Notes under the pieces: generated by a model | Seen by the model: the letters and a program-made list of their open reading frames with translations, nothing else | Database searches by the model: none | Told to the model about the DNA's origin: nothing | Program-made: the position numbers and the translations under genes | Part shown: positions 22,187 through 33,820 of the stretch, in pieces | Layout: the number at the start of each line of letters is the position of its first letter | How positions within the stretch are numbered: the first letter of the stretch is position 1 | IMG/VR virus record: IMGVR_UViG_3300032282_001611 | Span: 1-34,141 of that record | Origin: a virus | DNA: 34,141 nucleotides | Strand: one strand, 5' to 3'

Positions 22187-22855
22187 ATGACTACAGATAC
22201 CCTAATTTCCAGGATTCAATTAAGACGCGGTAACTTTGAGGATCTTCCTATCCTTAAAGAAGGCGAGCTTGGCTATGCAATGGATAGAAAACGCCTATTC
22301 ATTGGAAATCCATCGCAGACTATAATTTCAACTGGCGACACTGATACCTATGAGTTAGATTTTCGTATCGCTCGCCCAAGTCAAATTATTGTATTAGTTG
22401 ATAATACACAAAAGACTGCTGGTGTACATTATACTGTATCTGGTACTGCATTGACTTTCAATGCACCTGCGCCAGCTCTTAACGCAGTTATTCAAGTAGG
22501 TGTTAACAATGAAATTGTATTGGATAAAGCCGATGCAATGACTGATACTTTGCCAATCTTGGCAGCAGTAATGGATAGTTTCAGTGGAATCTATTTTGAT
22601 TCCACAGTATATAATACAGCAGTAATTGATTACAGCTTCAAGGACTCATCAGGAAATATGCAAGTAGGACAAATAAGAATGATAACCAACGGAATAGATG
22701 TTAGCGTTGCAGACACAAGCAATGCCATTGGTTCTCCAACCGTATCTTTCTCAGGTGAAATAGATGGCAACGACTATTTCCGACTCAACTATACCAACAG
22801 CTCATCATCTGCTGGTACTTTCTATTACACAATAAGACTCTGGTATACACAGTGA
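22187..22855 (+). CDS. Virion protein with Mtd-N-like (phage tropism determinant) domain
   Basis: A 222-residue protein. The N-terminus SRIQLRRGNFEDLPILKEGELGYAMDRKRLFIGN is the hallmark of the major-tropism-determinant N-terminal domain found in phage receptor-binding and fibre-associated proteins (R-RG...LP.L..GE.GY..D...L.IG). The middle (TYELDFRIARPSQIIVLVDNTQ) and C-terminal beta-rich part (SFSGEIDGNDYFRLNYTNSSSS) suit a trimeric fibre or baseplate module. A late promoter precedes it and its stop overlaps the GTG of the next gene. It is likely a tail or baseplate structural protein; no hypervariable cassette or reverse transcriptase is nearby. Confidence 0.75.
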   Translation: MTTDTLISRIQLRRGNFEDLPILKEGELGYAMDRKRLFIGNPSQTIISTGDTDTYELDFRIARPSQIIVLVDNTQKTAGVHYTVSGTALTFNAPAPALNAVIQVGVNNEIVLDKADAMTDTLPILAAVMDSFSGIYFDSTVYNTAVIDYSFKDSSGNMQVGQIRMITNGIDVSVADTSNAIGSPTVSFSGEIDGNDYFRLNYTNSSSSAGTFYYTIRLWYTQ

Positions 22856-27098: not shown

Positions 27099-27130
27099 AA
27101 AAAGCCCCGTTTGACCGGGGCTTTTTCTTT
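27099..27130 (+). terminator. Strong intrinsic terminator of the nrd operon
   Basis: AAAAAGCCCCG (27099-27109) pairs with CGGGGCTTTTT (27116-27126), then CTTT follows. It is a GC-rich stem with A-tract and T-run, so it can act in both directions. Confidence 0.9.
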
Positions 27131-27157: not shown

Positions 27158-27466
27158 ATGTTTATAATTAACGTAACAAAACCTGGCGATATCGTCAGTA
27201 TCAAGCTGACCAGCAATGATGAAGTGATTGGCAAATTAGTTTCTGACGACAACGGAACATTGGTGTTAAACAAGCCGGTTGTATTAGCAATGGCACAGTC
27301 AGGACCAACCATGGTTCCTTACATGCTCACAGCTGAACCCACAGTACACGACTTTACATTCAAAGAACAGCATGTGGTACATTGTGTACCCACAGCAAAA
27401 ACTCTTGCAAGCCAATATATCCAGGGTACAACAGGCATCGTGCCTGCAGGAAATATACAGATCTAA
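27158..27466 (+). CDS. Small LSm-like conserved phage protein
   Basis: A 102-residue protein. TKPGDIVSIKLTSNDEVIGKLVSDDNGTLVLNKPVVLAM has the strand spacing of an Sm/LSm-like barrel. A PYMLTAEP segment and a conserved-looking ASQYIQGTTGI near the C-terminus follow. I recall the same sequence pattern as a frequent uncharacterised protein of aquatic T4-like phages. It opens the late unit that contains the multi-domain lysin (12 bases downstream). Assembly of a small ring in the baseplate or RNA binding are both possible; neither is shown. Confidence 0.65.
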   Translation: MFIINVTKPGDIVSIKLTSNDEVIGKLVSDDNGTLVLNKPVVLAMAQSGPTMVPYMLTAEPTVHDFTFKEQHVVHCVPTAKTLASQYIQGTTGIVPAGNIQI

Positions 27467-27478
27467 GGACTAACCTAG

Positions 27479-30400
27479 ATGGGTAGACTCAGCAGTGGCT
27501 ACGGCCCACGTGGCGGCGGATTTCACAGCGGTACAGATTATGCGGCGCCTATAGGTACGCCTATCTACGCCAATGGGCCAATGACCGTCACTGGAGTCTA
27601 TCCAAATGGATCAGCAGGACAAACAGGATATGGCAATACAGTAACACTCAAAGATGCCAACGGAGTTGAATATAGGCATGCTCACTTAAACAGCGTACCT
27701 AATCTACAACCAGGACAGCAAGTTGGTGCAGGCGACTTAGTAGGTAATGTAGGCAATACAGGAAACTCATCAGGACCGCACAACCATTTTGAAGTTTCTA
27801 CTGCTGGCAACATCAATGGCAAGCAAGGACTAACCAGCGGCGAAGCAATAGATCCCAAGACAGGAAAAGCCTATTCAGATTCGTTCTCAATGGGTAGCAA
27901 GGATGCAGGAAGTCTTAATAGCGAGCGCGGAGGTGCAGGACAGGAACAAGGAGATGATCACGATCATACTCCAGCACCTACAGATAAACCACCACCGGCA
28001 CCTACAACAACTACACCGGCACCCAAAGCACCACCAACATCCAATGGTAAACGAGTACATCGACTAACTGACAGGAATTCAGCAGGCGGTGCTATCGATG
28101 AGTGTGTTGCTAAAACTGTGTTTGTTAACAATCTACCTATCAGTGTTGATGGTAGCAAAGGTACAGGGCATCCAGCAGGATCAGATCCTGCTGACCGTGT
28201 GCCGCCGAATACAAGGCCCGGTGGTGCAACACCCAGGAGAAATCCAAACAATAATAATTGTGTAGGCGAGCGACCTTCTCCGAATGGTGGCCAGCAACCG
28301 CCACAACCCACTACACCAAATGCACCAGAAGGTAACCCAACTAATATTGTAGACTTAGGTAGGCAGTTACAGGCACAAGGAATTCGAGTAAGCGAGCATC
28401 CTGAATTTGGTGGAGTAGAACCAGTACACAGAGGTAGAGGTCATTATGATGGTCGAGCAATTGATGTTAATGCACCTGGCGGCATAGTTGAGGCCAATGA
28501 CCCAGTATGGGGTCCTCGATTTGATACGATTGCACAGCAAGCTCGCGCACAAGGATTTACAGTTATTTGGCGTAGTGCTGGCCACTATAACCACATGCAC
28601 ATTGAACAACCAGCCAATGGTGTGATACCAAATGCCAATCCACCAAATCCTGCGGCACCCCCAGCACCTAATCTTCCAGCAGGTGCATCTGGCGATTGTG
28701 TTCCAGGAGATAATGCAGTACCTGCACCTAGTCCTCCACCTTCAGCGGATCACTGCTACCATTGTTGGGCCACAGCAAACGGTAGTAGGAATGTATTTGT
28801 TGAAAATCTACCAGTGAACTTCGAAGGTAATCTTGATACCTGCGGTCACGCTCGTATTGAAGGTTCACCAAATGTGTTTGTTGGGGAGACTACTAACACA
28901 GCACAAGATAGGCCGCTTGGGTCTGACCGAGCCGCACGTAATACCAAAGAATCAAACAAAGGCAGCGGCAACGCAAGTCCGAGCAATGTTGCTTGCCGTC
29001 AGAATGAAGTCGATCAGTCTAAGAAAAATGCTGATCCAGAAGATCCCAATAAAGATGGTCCGCAACCAAACGCTGATCCAGACGATCCCAATAAACCAGT
29101 TGATGCAAAGCCAGGTGTAACAGGTGAAGGACAAGCAGATAGCGAACAAGCCAGCCGTCAACGATTATTAGCACAAATGGAACAAGATTACGCCAACAGA
29201 GATCAATGGAAAGGCGGTAAGGGTTCTCCTGCTGGCAATGCCGCTTTCCAAAATTTAGGATATGGTAATGCTGCCAATGGAACCGCATGGTGCGCTGGTT
29301 ATGTAAACAGCAATCTCAAGGATGCTGGCGCAGGATATGCATCAAGTCTAAGTTCACAATCACCCACAGCATTTAAGCCAGTGCCATCAGGCCAAGCCAA
29401 GCCAGGCGATGTGTTAGTGTTTGATCATCATACAGCACTGGTCAAAGAAGTTGCACCAAATGGTGATATATTATTACAAGGTGGTAACCAGGGTGGCGGT
29501 AGCGGTGCAGTCACACAAAACTGGTTACGTGCAAGCAATGGATACAATTATGGCGGACAGAGTCTACAAGGAATTTACAATCCTCACGACAAGGAATGGA
29601 ACGCCAGTCATAATCTAAATGTGATACCCAATGGACAACAGCGACCTGGATACGGCAGCGCACAACCAGGCGGAACGCCCGGCGGGAAAGATTGTCCACC
29701 ACAGACACCACAAGAACAAGCAGCCGGAGAAGGAAAAGGTACTAGACCAGAGCTAGGTGGTGATGGCCGCACACCAGGCGATGTTGCTTATCCTAATCCA
29801 AGCAGTATATTGGGCGGCATCCTTGGCGGCGGAGGCTTGTTTGGCGGCGGTCCAACCTTCCCAACAAATCAAGGACCTTATCCTGCACCACCTAAAGTTG
29901 ATCCAATGAAGATTGCGTCAGAAGTATTTGATGCATCAATGGACGACAATGAAAGTCCTCCAATCAGTCCGTTGAACACATGCGATCGTGCTAGAGAATT
30001 AGCCAAGGCAGCAACTGGAAAAGAATTCCCATCCGGAACAGAAGTGGCCGCACAAGTAGCAACAGCACAGAAGCTTTGGTGGGACGAAGCAATGGCTGCA
30101 AATCAATATAGATACGAAGCGGCTGTGGAAGCATACAGGCAGGCAGGCATAACTGCATTTAGACCACTAAGCGCAGAATCAATGACACGCATCATGGCTT
30201 ACCAAAGCGGTTGGGGTAATAGTAGATGCGTTAGTTCAGCCGCATACGATAAGAACAATCCTATAGGTATTGGGTGGAACGGATCTTCGTTCTACGAATA
30301 CCCAGACAAACAGTTAGGATGGGATGCTACATGGAAATTCATAGCATTTGGAACAGATGGCAGTCTAGGACGATACTTGCTCCCTGTAGATACCCCGCAG

Positions 30401-30493
30401 GAAACAGATTTTGAGATAGACTATATCTACAAGCAAGGATTGGTAAACGGTCAAACACCACCGGGTGTGTTGCTGATAAAGCCACCCCAGTAA
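27479..30493 (+). CDS. Multi-domain tail-associated peptidoglycan hydrolase (M23, M15-like, CHAP, glucosaminidase-like)
   Basis: A 1004-residue modular protein with AAGGA ahead of ATG 27479. Domains in order: an M23 LytM-type endopeptidase with H16-x3-D20, H67 and H101-N-H103-FE; a proline linker; a PAAR-like patch near 195-245; an M15/VanY-like carboxypeptidase with H322-x6-D329 and H372-M-H374; a second PAAR-like patch (435-470, NGSRNVFVENLPVNFEG). Then comes a CHAP/amidase-like domain with C605 (GTAWCAGYVN) and H651 (HHTALV), a glycine/proline linker, and a C-terminal region with YQSGWGNS and NNPIGIGW (908-933) resembling the lysozyme-like glucosaminidase fold. There is no signal peptide. 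It is most likely a baseplate/spike lysin opening the cell wall during injection. Confidence 0.85.
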   Translation: MGRLSSGYGPRGGGFHSGTDYAAPIGTPIYANGPMTVTGVYPNGSAGQTGYGNTVTLKDANGVEYRHAHLNSVPNLQPGQQVGAGDLVGNVGNTGNSSGPHNHFEVSTAGNINGKQGLTSGEAIDPKTGKAYSDSFSMGSKDAGSLNSERGGAGQEQGDDHDHTPAPTDKPPPAPTTTTPAPKAPPTSNGKRVHRLTDRNSAGGAIDECVAKTVFVNNLPISVDGSKGTGHPAGSDPADRVPPNTRPGGATPRRNPNNNNCVGERPSPNGGQQPPQPTTPNAPEGNPTNIVDLGRQLQAQGIRVSEHPEFGGVEPVHRGRGHYDGRAIDVNAPGGIVEANDPVWGPRFDTIAQQARAQGFTVIWRSAGHYNHMHIEQPANGVIPNANPPNPAAPPAPNLPAGASGDCVPGDNAVPAPSPPPSADHCYHCWATANGSRNVFVENLPVNFEGNLDTCGHARIEGSPNVFVGETTNTAQDRPLGSDRAARNTKESNKGSGNASPSNVACRQNEVDQSKKNADPEDPNKDGPQPNADPDDPNKPVDAKPGVTGEGQADSEQASRQRLLAQMEQDYANRDQWKGGKGSPAGNAAFQNLGYGNAANGTAWCAGYVNSNLKDAGAGYASSLSSQSPTAFKPVPSGQAKPGDVLVFDHHTALVKEVAPNGDILLQGGNQGGGSGAVTQNWLRASNGYNYGGQSLQGIYNPHDKEWNASHNLNVIPNGQQRPGYGSAQPGGTPGGKDCPPQTPQEQAAGEGKGTRPELGGDGRTPGDVAYPNPSSILGGILGGGGLFGGGPTFPTNQGPYPAPPKVDPMKIASEVFDASMDDNESPPISPLNTCDRARELAKAATGKEFPSGTEVAAQVATAQKLWWDEAMAANQYRYEAAVEAYRQAGITAFRPLSAESMTRIMAYQSGWGNSRCVSSAAYDKNNPIGIGWNGSSFYEYPDKQLGWDATWKFIAFGTDGSLGRYLLPVDTPQETDFEIDYIYKQGLVNGQTPPGVLLIKPPQ

Positions 30494-30514: not shown

Positions 30515-33500
30515 ATGGCACTAGTAAATGTTGAAGTAGGGTCAAACACCCTAGGTATAGGATTACCAACAGAGCTTGATATCAAGCGTCTGCTTTGTGC
30601 CCTGTTGGCTGGAGATATAAACAACCTAATGAGCGGTCCGTTGATTTGTATCAACACGCATATTGATGATTTATTAGGTAGACTACCCTCAGGTGTGCTT
30701 GCTGATGCTCTAAGAGATTTGCAGTATGGTATTGGAGACTTGTTACAGCAATCAGGCATCAACGATACGCTAGGAAGATTGAACAGCGCAACAAGCCAAC
30801 TGGAAAGCCTTTTTGGCCTTGGCGGAATTTGTCCTGTTCCGTTTACTTTGCCACGCATTGGCAACATACTTGGCGACATGGTGGCTGCTTATTCAGCAGG
30901 TGCAAGACAAATCATATCTGATATCGCAAACCTTGAGCAAGCATTAAGTCATGTGTGTCTTGGCACAGGTGGTATTGGTGCCAACTGGAACAACATGATT
31001 GGTGGTAGTCTTTACAGATTAAATCAAGATATCAATACATTTGGTGGAAGTCAGATTCCTGAAAACGTAATAGGACAATACGTTGCACAGTTCAATCAAT
31101 CTAAAAATGCAGTGGCAGGAATAGTTGACCGTATGAACGGCGGCGCAGGCAATGACGCCGCCGCAGTAGCAACCGCTGCCGGTCTTGCTTTTCAACTCAA
31201 CGGGTTGTATAACAAATTGGGTTCTTATCCTGTAACTGATGGCAACGTAGTATACGATAACGTATTCAAGATGTTCTTGGATCCAGATGTGTATGATGCA
31301 CTGGTTGGGCAAACTGGTGGTACAACGCTTATCACTACAACTGAAAATGTGTTAGACAACTGTGGTCGTGTTGTTTCTACTAAAGAAGTTGTACTACAAG
31401 GTGACATCAATACCAAGCCGTTTGATGCTACATTAGATGCGGCAGTAGTTCCTGTGCCTACTCCGGCACTTGGGGATTTCAAAGTAAGAGAAGAATCCGG
31501 ACAATTCAAAGTCAATCTGTTAAGTGGCAACAATCCTGTAATCACATTGATCAAAGGACGTAGCTATAATATTGCACTGGAAACAGATACCATTGGTTTC
31601 AACATTGTTGACCCGGTGACCAACCAAACATATAACGAAGGATTAGTACACGAAGACGGAACACAAGGACAGTATGCACAGAATAAAAAGATTGGATACC
31701 TTACATGGAATATTCCAATCGATGCACCAGATGAATTGAAGTATGCCAATGTTGGCGGAACTGAGACTAACAGGATTGTCTTGCAGAATGTTTCGGCAGC
31801 AGGTGTTCCTTACATAACCCCACCAGGCGGAGATACTACCAACAGCTTTGGTAAAGTCATAGTCAGCGGACAAGGCACGATTGAATCATCTATACCTGGT
31901 GATACACTGACATTTGCTGCCGGAAGTAATATAACTTTTGCAACCGATACAGTAAACAAGAGAGTAACCATATCGGCTAATACAAGCACAGGTAACCTAG
32001 GATCAATCATTGTCAAAGACGAAGGCACTTTGATAAATGCCGGTGCCACTACATTAAACTTTACTGGTACTGGTGTCATCGCTACTTCTTCTGGTAATGT
32101 AGTAACACTTCAAATTGATACAGGTGGCGGATTAAATGCCTTTACAAATTTTACAGTTGGCGCAAATGTAATACAACCCGATTCTACTAACGATACATTA
32201 ACTTTTGTTGCCGGCTCGAATGTTATATTGGACGCTAATACTACAACAGATACTATAACCATATCGAGCATTGGTGGTTATGCATTTAGTAACATTGTTG
32301 TAGATGATGTTATTGTAGAAGCAGATACACAAGGTGATACACTAACATTAGTAGCCGGTCCAGGGATCAGTTTAACCGCAGATCCGCTGTCAGATACCAT
32401 TACAATCACTAATACTGGAGGAGGAGGAGGAGGAGGCGGAAATAGCTTTGCTATCGTTGCAGTACCTGGACAACCTAGTGTGATTGCCGAAACCGCAAAT
32501 GATACTCTAAATATACATGCAGGCACAAATGTATCTATAACAACTAATGCAACAACAGACACCTTAACCATAAATGCTAGTATTCCGACATTCAAAAATA
32601 TCGTTGTTGGTTCAAATACTGTTGTGGCAGATAATGATACTGATACACTAACATTGATAGAAGGTAATGGAATAACACTAGTAGGTGACCCGGTTACTGA
32701 TAGCATAACAATATCTTCAGCAGTTAATACATTTTCATCTATTACAGTATCGGGCGGAGCAACCGCAGTAGCTGATACTGCCAATGATACGTTAACATTG
32801 ATACCAGGATCTGGTATTACATTGGTTGCTGATCCTGTCACTGATAGCATAACCATTTCGTCTACTGCGCCAAACTTATTTTCAACGGTTGCAGTTGCCG
32901 GGCAATCAAACATTGTTGCTGATGGTGCAGGAGATACACTTACCTTTGCCGCAGGATCGGCAATAACATTAACTACAAATGCTACTACGGATACGTTAAC
33001 TGTTGCCATATCAAGCAATCCAACTATTCCGGGAAATCAATTTATACGTGTTCCTTTTGGTACAACCTTACAGAGGCCTACAACAGGAGCAGATGGACAG
33101 CTACGTTATAATACTACTACAACTGCATTGGAAGTATTCAATACATCATGGAAAAGCCTGATTGATGAAGTAGTCAGTGTTGGTACAGGTACCAACATTA
33201 TTAAAGCAGTAACAGATTCTAAAGTTGAACTACGTAGTGTTAAAGCTGGAACTGGTATATCAATCGCTACAGATGGAAACGATATTACTATCGCATCTAC
33301 AGTTACAGATCTCACAACCGGTACTAATGTTGGTACCGGTACCGGTGTATTCAAAGAGAAAGTAGGCGACCAGTTAATTTTCCGTAGCATTAAAGCAGGT
33401 ACAGGTGTTGCTGTAACAACTGATGGTAATGACATAACCATTACAGCACCAAGAGACCAATTCGTAGAAGCTGGTACAGCTACAACAACTACTGCGGCAT

Positions 33501-33820
33501 TTACAAACGTAACATGGACCAATACACTAGCACCGGTAACCAATAGCTCTTGGTTCTTTGAAGCCACATTTATTGGACGTAGGACAGGCGGCGTAGTTGA
33601 ACGTAATGCTTTCAAAATCGAAGGAGTAGTTGATAACACAGCTGGCACCATATCGCTAGTCGGCCCAGCGGCAAAGACTACCTACCAGAACAATGCTACC
33701 CAATGGGATGTTGATGTCTCAATCGTTTCCAATGTGTTGCGCTTCCGAGTTAAAGGTGAAGCTAGCAAGACAATCAAATGGACAGGTTGGTTACGTTATC
33801 AGGCAGTTACTGAGGTATAA
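30515..33820 (+). CDS. Repeat-rich tail fibre protein
   Basis: A 1101-residue protein with AGAGGA ahead of ATG 30515. Residues 1-300 are a helical N-terminal region (IDDLLGRLPSGVLADALRDL) probably attaching to the baseplate. Residues about 300-440 are beta-rich. Residues about 443-835 hold about eight copies of a repeat of 46-55 residues with the core ADTxxDTLTLxxGxGITL and TDSITISS, a typical fibre shaft. A run of eight glycines lies at about 635-642. RVPFGTTLQRPTTGADGQLRYN (about 845) is a common phage virion signature. Two further VKAGTGISIATDGNDITIA-type repeats and a C-terminal beta-sandwich (about 980-1101, FFEATFIGRRTGGVVERNAF) may bind the receptor. Confidence 0.85.
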   Translation: MALVNVEVGSNTLGIGLPTELDIKRLLCALLAGDINNLMSGPLICINTHIDDLLGRLPSGVLADALRDLQYGIGDLLQQSGINDTLGRLNSATSQLESLFGLGGICPVPFTLPRIGNILGDMVAAYSAGARQIISDIANLEQALSHVCLGTGGIGANWNNMIGGSLYRLNQDINTFGGSQIPENVIGQYVAQFNQSKNAVAGIVDRMNGGAGNDAAAVATAAGLAFQLNGLYNKLGSYPVTDGNVVYDNVFKMFLDPDVYDALVGQTGGTTLITTTENVLDNCGRVVSTKEVVLQGDINTKPFDATLDAAVVPVPTPALGDFKVREESGQFKVNLLSGNNPVITLIKGRSYNIALETDTIGFNIVDPVTNQTYNEGLVHEDGTQGQYAQNKKIGYLTWNIPIDAPDELKYANVGGTETNRIVLQNVSAAGVPYITPPGGDTTNSFGKVIVSGQGTIESSIPGDTLTFAAGSNITFATDTVNKRVTISANTSTGNLGSIIVKDEGTLINAGATTLNFTGTGVIATSSGNVVTLQIDTGGGLNAFTNFTVGANVIQPDSTNDTLTFVAGSNVILDANTTTDTITISSIGGYAFSNIVVDDVIVEADTQGDTLTLVAGPGISLTADPLSDTITITNTGGGGGGGGNSFAIVAVPGQPSVIAETANDTLNIHAGTNVSITTNATTDTLTINASIPTFKNIVVGSNTVVADNDTDTLTLIEGNGITLVGDPVTDSITISSAVNTFSSITVSGGATAVADTANDTLTLIPGSGITLVADPVTDSITISSTAPNLFSTVAVAGQSNIVADGAGDTLTFAAGSAITLTTNATTDTLTVAISSNPTIPGNQFIRVPFGTTLQRPTTGADGQLRYNTTTTALEVFNTSWKSLIDEVVSVGTGTNIIKAVTDSKVELRSVKAGTGISIATDGNDITIASTVTDLTTGTNVGTGTGVFKEKVGDQLIFRSIKAGTGVAVTTDGNDITITAPRDQFVEAGTATTTTAAFTNVTWTNTLAPVTNSSWFFEATFIGRRTGGVVERNAFKIEGVVDNTAGTISLVGPAAKTTYQNNATQWDVDVSIVSNVLRFRVKGEASKTIKWTGWLRYQAVTEV
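31841..33030 (+). repeat. About eight tandem fibre repeats, roughly 46-55 codons each
   Basis: Each unit reads F..I.V....V.AD...DTLTL..G.GITL...P.TDSITIS at protein level. The last units (32580-33030) are the most alike, and the first two are the most diverged. Units are similar at DNA level too, so unequal recombination could change the copy number. Confidence 0.75.
32417..32440 (+). repeat. GGA trinucleotide run coding eight glycines
   Basis: Six consecutive GGA codons, then GGC and GGA, lie between two fibre repeats. A triplet run keeps the frame when it slips, so length variation would change only the hinge. Confidence 0.85.

Follow-up and report, generated by a model that had tools for sequence, protein, structure and literature searches.

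The locus considered here raises the question of what holds several wall-cleaving domains together in one phage protein, and of where in the phage such a protein would act. It lies in a linear virus record of 34,141 bp, analysed as a whole and called the window, which is probably a fragment of a larger phage genome. Its gene content is of the large T4-like phage type, with a UvsY-like mediator, DNA helicases, a primase, NrdA, NrdB and a glutaredoxin. The DnaB-like helicase is closest to those of the jumbo Pseudomonas phages PA5oct and MIJ3 (54% identity) and next to that of Agrobacterium phage Atu_ph07, and the closest relative of NrdA is found in cyanophages. Elsewhere in the window, positions 22187-22855 encode a 222-aa protein whose N-terminus matches Mtd_N, the major tropism determinant N-terminal domain (E 3.5e-8).

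An earlier note on this DNA had described a 1004-residue polypeptide with M23, M15-like, CHAP and glucosaminidase-like modules. The length holds, as the frame is open throughout and follows a ribosome-binding site, and reverse-strand frame 1 over the same interval has many stops. The features of the gene are as follows.

27465..27469, + strand: Shine-Dalgarno-like AAGGA, 9 nt before the ATG, read from the sequence
27479..30493, + strand: whole gene, 1004 aa, in the order M23, PAAR (N half), LAS peptidase insert, PAAR (C half), CHAP, helical C-terminal domain
27479..27859, + strand: M23 endopeptidase domain, aa 1-127 (Pfam PF01551)
28049..28171, + strand: N half of the PAAR domain, aa 191-231, from the alignment with the unsplit PAAR of L005, L008, L051, L052 and L053
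28172..28744, + strand: insert, aa 232-422, with the LAS domain between Pro/Gly-rich linkers
28337..28612, + strand: putative LAS (Mt3/VldE-like) zinc peptidase domain, aa 287-378, with H322, D329, H369, H372, H374 and W364
28745..28894, + strand: C half of the PAAR domain, aa 423-472, with predicted zinc ligands His425, Cys455 and His457
29249..29587, + strand: CHAP domain, aa 591-703 (Pfam PF05257), with Cys605 and His651
29891..30490, + strand: C-terminal domain, aa 805-1004, modelled as mostly helical, with Gln909

From these assignments, the protein appears to combine three wall-cutting enzyme domains with intact active-site residues, one of them inside a PAAR cap, and Pro/Gly-rich linkers join the enzyme domains. 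Two of the three are those already named. The M23 module matches Pfam PF01551 over aa 15-110 (E 5.4e-21, 75 bits, cut-off 28.7) and its HxxxD and HxH zinc motifs are complete (His16-x3-Asp20, His69, His101-x-His103). The CHAP module reached 24.2 bits over aa 599-670 in the whole-protein Pfam scan (cut-off 26) and 29.2 bits (E 1.3e-6), above the same cut-off, when the segment was scanned alone. The cut-off is also passed in two orthologs, with 30.4 bits in L005, and Cys605 and His651 are kept in the orthologs. A scan of viral contigs with the CHAP domain only gave no matches. When the full 1004-aa protein was compared by tblastn with 50,697 annotated phage records, only short matches to the M23 part were obtained.

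The organising domain of the protein is the PAAR. The earlier note had seen PAAR-like patches; the signal is genuine, and the patches are the two halves of one PAAR domain split by the LAS domain. Two separate PAAR domains were considered and ruled out, because the orthologs show a single uninterrupted one. The unsplit domain of L005 matches Pfam PAAR with E 5.7e-4 over positions 3-65 of 70, and among PDB entries it matches 4JIW (E 3.2e-4). The copy of the window stays below threshold (E 0.029), as expected of a split domain, and in the AlphaFold2 model of aa 162-522 the PAAR has a pLDDT below 35. Alignment with L052, L053 and Dolphis gp24 places H231, H425, C455 and H457 at the three-His/one-Cys predicted zinc site. 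The first His is not strictly kept, since L005 has GTAD in place of GTGH.

The N half of the PAAR ends at the predicted zinc ligand His231 and the insert falls between this first ligand and the second, His425. It is 573 nt long, the reading frame is kept across both junctions, its GC and GC3 are similar to those of the remainder of the gene, and no flanking direct repeat was found at its ends. In PAAR proteins, three His and one Cys coordinate the zinc close to the vertex of the cone (PMC8651086). Since the insert separates His231 from His425, the LAS domain should project near this vertex and should thus stand near the tip of the PAAR cone. An enzyme in the vertex loop might also disturb the zinc site.

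The inserted domain itself carries the motif HYxGRAID...GHYNHMH (H322, D329, H369, H372, H374). Its relatives were found at 27 viral loci, some of them near-duplicates, among which H322, D329 and H374 of the HxxxxxxD ... HxH zinc motif are conserved and W364 is invariant. Some relatives are part of T4-like tail or tape-measure-like proteins (L001, L022, L041), and the domain of the window is 79% identical to that of the L001 phage group. In a scan of genome contigs with the LAS domain, the sole match was a Brevibacterium tape-measure-like protein (L021). Many phage contigs also encode small LAS proteins of 162-194 aa with a signal-peptide-like start (L003:5749-6276, L026-L045), which are perhaps exported lysins.

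The AlphaFold2 model is confident for the LAS domain only, with ten-residue means of 65 to 86. The best structural alignment of this part to PDB chains by VIA-align was to VldE (Z 7.7, 78 residues, 23% identity). The other matches from the LAS superfamily were the S. albus DD-peptidase, ChiX, Ply500, MepA and Hedgehog, the LAS members ranging from Z 7.7 to 4.3. These values are middling (under 8) and unrelated sugar phosphatases score Z 5 to 6.2 against the same model, so that the structural support for a LAS fold is fair rather than strong. In a comparison of the LAS profile with PDB sequences, the matches were weak, with Hedgehog first (E 0.24 and worse). Taken from motif and model, aa 287-378 can be assigned with fair confidence to the LAS-fold zinc peptidases.

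As for its family, a Pfam scan of aa 287-378 alone gave no meaningful match and no M15 family at E up to 10. The domain named M15-like in the earlier note is better read as a LAS/Mt3-type zinc peptidase than as Pfam M15. VldE, which cuts L-Ala-D-Glu, belongs to the Mt3 enzymes, whose name is taken from motif 3 of the TM4 tape measure, and bears the residues H301, D308, H370, D372, H373 and H375 (PMC11667670). By motif, these correspond to H322, D329, H369, N371, H372 and H374 of the window. Mt3 also contains a well-conserved Trp (PMC1796659). The HxDHxH pattern of Mt3/VldE accordingly reads H369-x-N371-H372-x-H374 in the window, together with W364 and with Asn replacing Asp. Because VldE is the best structural match, cleavage of L-Ala-D-Glu appears likelier than that of terminal D-Ala, by analogy with this characterised relative. 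The cutting of terminal D-Ala that had been proposed earlier is therefore not supported, and a terminal D-Ala carboxypeptidase was ruled out from the lack of a Pfam M15 match and the structural ranking of VldE.

Relatives of the whole gene came to light when the C-terminal domain and the PAAR sequence were used in scans. Three are syntenic orthologs: L005 (823 aa), L008 (at least 802 aa, the frame reaching the contig end) and L051 (887 aa). All three have the layout M23-PAAR-CHAP-C-domain with an unbroken PAAR, and roughly aa 232 to 422 of the window protein have no counterpart in them, so the insert is known in one record only, the window. In all three, the gene comes after nrdA and nrdB. As in the window, a glutaredoxin and a 102-aa phrog_527 ORF lie between nrdAB and the ortholog in L005, and a 102-aa ORF in L008.

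In parallel, two stand-alone PAAR proteins were found, and both keep the three His and one Cys. That of L053 has 90 aa (27.3 bits, Pfam cut-off 27) and is directly behind a 141-aa ORF, NrdA and NrdB, which is the same place as that of the window gene. That of L052, encoded in a 376-kb record, has 95 aa and shows a weak match to the phiKZ spike-tip protein 6P1Z (E 0.015). M23, CHAP and LAS models gave no matches in the records with stand-alone PAARs, which may be fragments. Comparison of these sequences makes plausible an order in which a stand-alone PAAR behind nrdAB would have gained M23, CHAP and the C-terminal domain, and then the LAS domain in the PAAR loop.

Another large protein should be mentioned with respect to the number of enzymes per chain. 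The earlier note had held that one or two catalytic domains are usual in tail lysins, which is partly right, as a T4-like tail protein of L001 also has three hydrolase domains. This different protein (L001:1224-4562, L002:3586-6864) is about 1100 aa long and Pro-rich, and contains Peptidase_M15_4, GH19 and the same LAS domain. It is a second three-hydrolase phage protein.

Three further features surround the gene.

27099..27126, + strand: terminator-like hairpin and T-run, 11 pairs, between the nrdAB-glutaredoxin genes and the PAAR-enzyme gene group
27158..27466, + strand: 102-aa ORF, phrog_527 (unknown function), immediately before the PAAR-enzyme gene
30515..33820, + strand: 1101-aa neighbour ORF, probable tail-fibre or tail protein

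Sites like the hairpin are no commoner in the surrounding region than in its shuffles. The phrog_527 ORF, also found upstream of the gene in L005 and L008, is possibly a candidate partner of the tip protein. Downstream, the positional counterparts of the 1101-aa neighbour in L005 and L051 have matches among tail-fibre PHROGs. The length of this fibre-like protein varies widely, with 1302 aa in L005 (L005:8643-12551), 1091 aa in L051 (L051:9880-13155) and 1101 aa in the window, and that of L005 has collagen-like Gly-Pro repeats.

A tail module was not found beside the PAAR-enzyme gene within the 34-kb record. A tail context is supported by the probable tail-fibre neighbour, by the CHAP domain, which matches the end of the baseplate hub/tail lysozyme family phrog_1259, and by a separate M23 gene among the baseplate genes of L016. 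The latter is 46-48% identical to the M23 of the window and is located between a baseplate-wedge gene and the hub/spike genes (L016:8001-13682).

With the PAAR as its organising domain, the likely location of the protein is the tip of the tail spike. The protein is probably the PAAR (gp5.4-type) tip of a phage with a contractile tail, enlarged to a penetration tool with several enzymes. As judged from its family, the PAAR domain would cap the baseplate spike. The M23 endopeptidase would be attached on its N-terminal side, the CHAP amidase/endopeptidase would follow on the C-terminal side with a helical domain that possibly binds the wall, and the LAS (Mt3/VldE-like) peptidase in the PAAR loop would project from near the vertex of the cone. 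When the sheath contracts, the tip would pass into the wall, where its three different peptide-cutting activities would act at a single point, and the peptidoglycan opened there could give passage to the tube and the DNA. Of the multi-enzyme lysin proposed earlier, M23 and CHAP remain as named, the third enzyme is of another type, the glycan cutter is unproven, and the protein is best read as a virion lysin. Against walls with much cross-linking, several cutters may be of help. This is suggested by TM4, in which a tape measure without Mt3 lowered DNA injection into stationary cells and reduced infection (PMC1796659).

The glycan cutter deserves separate consideration, since a working glucosaminidase at the C-terminus would mean that the protein also cuts glycan. 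This domain (aa 805-1004) is conserved in the orthologs with 60-76% identity and its motif QSGWGNS...KNNPIGIGW resembles the GH73 signature, in the register of which it was placed by a profile comparison with ten GH73 domains. Pfam Glucosaminidase gave weak matches in three of the orthologs (E 0.094 in the window, 0.022 and 0.056 in two others), and these 13.8-15.9 bits are about half of the cut-off of 30.2. The catalytic Glu of the E[S/T]GxG motif is replaced by Gln909 in the window and by Gln in L005, L008 and L051, that is in 4/4 orthologs. A Glu is present at that position in a distantly similar domain (E 2e-4) that ends an L016 protein encoded beside the baseplate spike gene. A lysozyme-like fold was not found for aa 805-1004 by Foldseek or VIA-align, the model being poor in the relevant half. 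By tblastn, the C-terminus of the window protein had no match in the 50,697 annotated phage records, and the C-terminal domain of L016 gave no match either. A working GH73 enzyme is thus unlikely, and the glucosaminidase-like fourth domain of the earlier note is not borne out. As a guess, the domain could be a degenerate, perhaps wall-binding relative of GH73.

Other readings concern the whole protein or the reality of the insert. M23 and CHAP are frequent in endolysins, and the PHROG matches of the M23 part are often labelled endolysin, as would suit a soluble enzyme of several domains that breaks the host open from inside late in infection. A PAAR in the middle of the chain, the stand-alone PAAR at the same place in L053, the adjoining probable tail-fibre gene and a translation without obvious signal sequence all speak against it and make an endolysin quite unlikely. 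A role as an antibacterial effector carried on PAAR in the manner of the T6SS, directed against competitors instead of serving DNA entry, would have its model in T6SS PAARs with effectors of such kind (PMC8651086). The gene stands however in a phage gene group, next to a probable tail-fibre gene, nothing resembling an immunity gene was recognised, and tail-borne wall hydrolases have a plain role in entry, so that this role is highly improbable. Finally, the presence of the insert in a single record and the 79% identity of its LAS domain to that of the L001 group could reflect a metagenome assembly join of two phages, the true gene being M23-PAAR-CHAP-C-domain as in L005, L008 and L051. Yet both junctions are in frame, within one PAAR loop and bordered by Pro/Gly-rich linkers, and GC and GC3 match the gene. 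Such a join is very unlikely because it would rarely fit in frame, loop, linkers and composition twice over.

The tip protein read from this gene can be compared with several known systems. It shares the three-repeat PAAR with three His and one Cys with T4 gp5.4, phiKZ PHIKZ163.1 (6P1Z) and the T6SS PAAR 4JIW, and its stand-alone relatives in L052 and L053 match known spike tips in size. Unlike these tips, the PAAR of the window has a hydrolase fused to each side and a third one interrupting it. With Mt3 of TM4 and VldE (Spr1875), it has in common the LAS fold, HxxxxxxD and HxxHxH and the conserved Trp, and Mt3 also sits in a tail protein. The window has Asn371 where VldE has Asp372, its activity is predicted, and its domain lies inside a PAAR, whereas that of TM4 lies in a tape measure. 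In the same way, T4 gp5 and phrog_1259 have a wall hydrolase built into the spike complex, and the CHAP-like end of phrog_1259 matches the CHAP of the window; here, however, three enzymes are carried, and by the PAAR tip protein instead of the hub or spike. T6SS PAARs with effector extensions also unite PAAR and enzymatic cargo in one chain. Their cargo is mostly a C-terminal extension, the form in which 40.3% of the toxins found are encoded (PMC8651086), whereas the cargo of the window flanks the PAAR on either side and also lies within it, and the protein is that of a phage.

Jumbo-phage PAAR proteins have been described in a review as stand-alone and unfused to effector domains (PMC7824862). 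A PAAR domain has been mentioned in a predicted jumbo-phage tail fibre (PMC12173070), so fused phage PAARs are not unknown. In literature of limited coverage, no phage PAAR with several wall hydrolases or split by one was found. Against the description in the review (PMC7824862), the present genes provide fused phage PAAR forms, including one whose PAAR fold houses an enzyme, and an unfused relative at the same genomic place.

Phage virion lysins are known mostly on hubs, spikes and tape measures. The gene described here joins two fields, namely these lysins and the effector-carrying PAAR tips of the T6SS. Its set of relatives makes testable whether cargo close to the vertex is tolerated by the cone and whether DNA entry is faster with an enzyme mounted on the tip, and its wall-cutting domains are possible parts for enzyme-based antibacterials. 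The chances are about even that a wall peptidase sits at the PAAR vertex between zinc ligands and that the nrdAB-linked PAAR gene is an evolving tool-holder, being a tip alone in L053, carrying M23, CHAP and the C-terminal domain in three phages and an extra enzyme in the window. If this is true, phage tails would acquire wall-cutting tools by loading them on the tip, as the T6SS does with effectors on PAAR.
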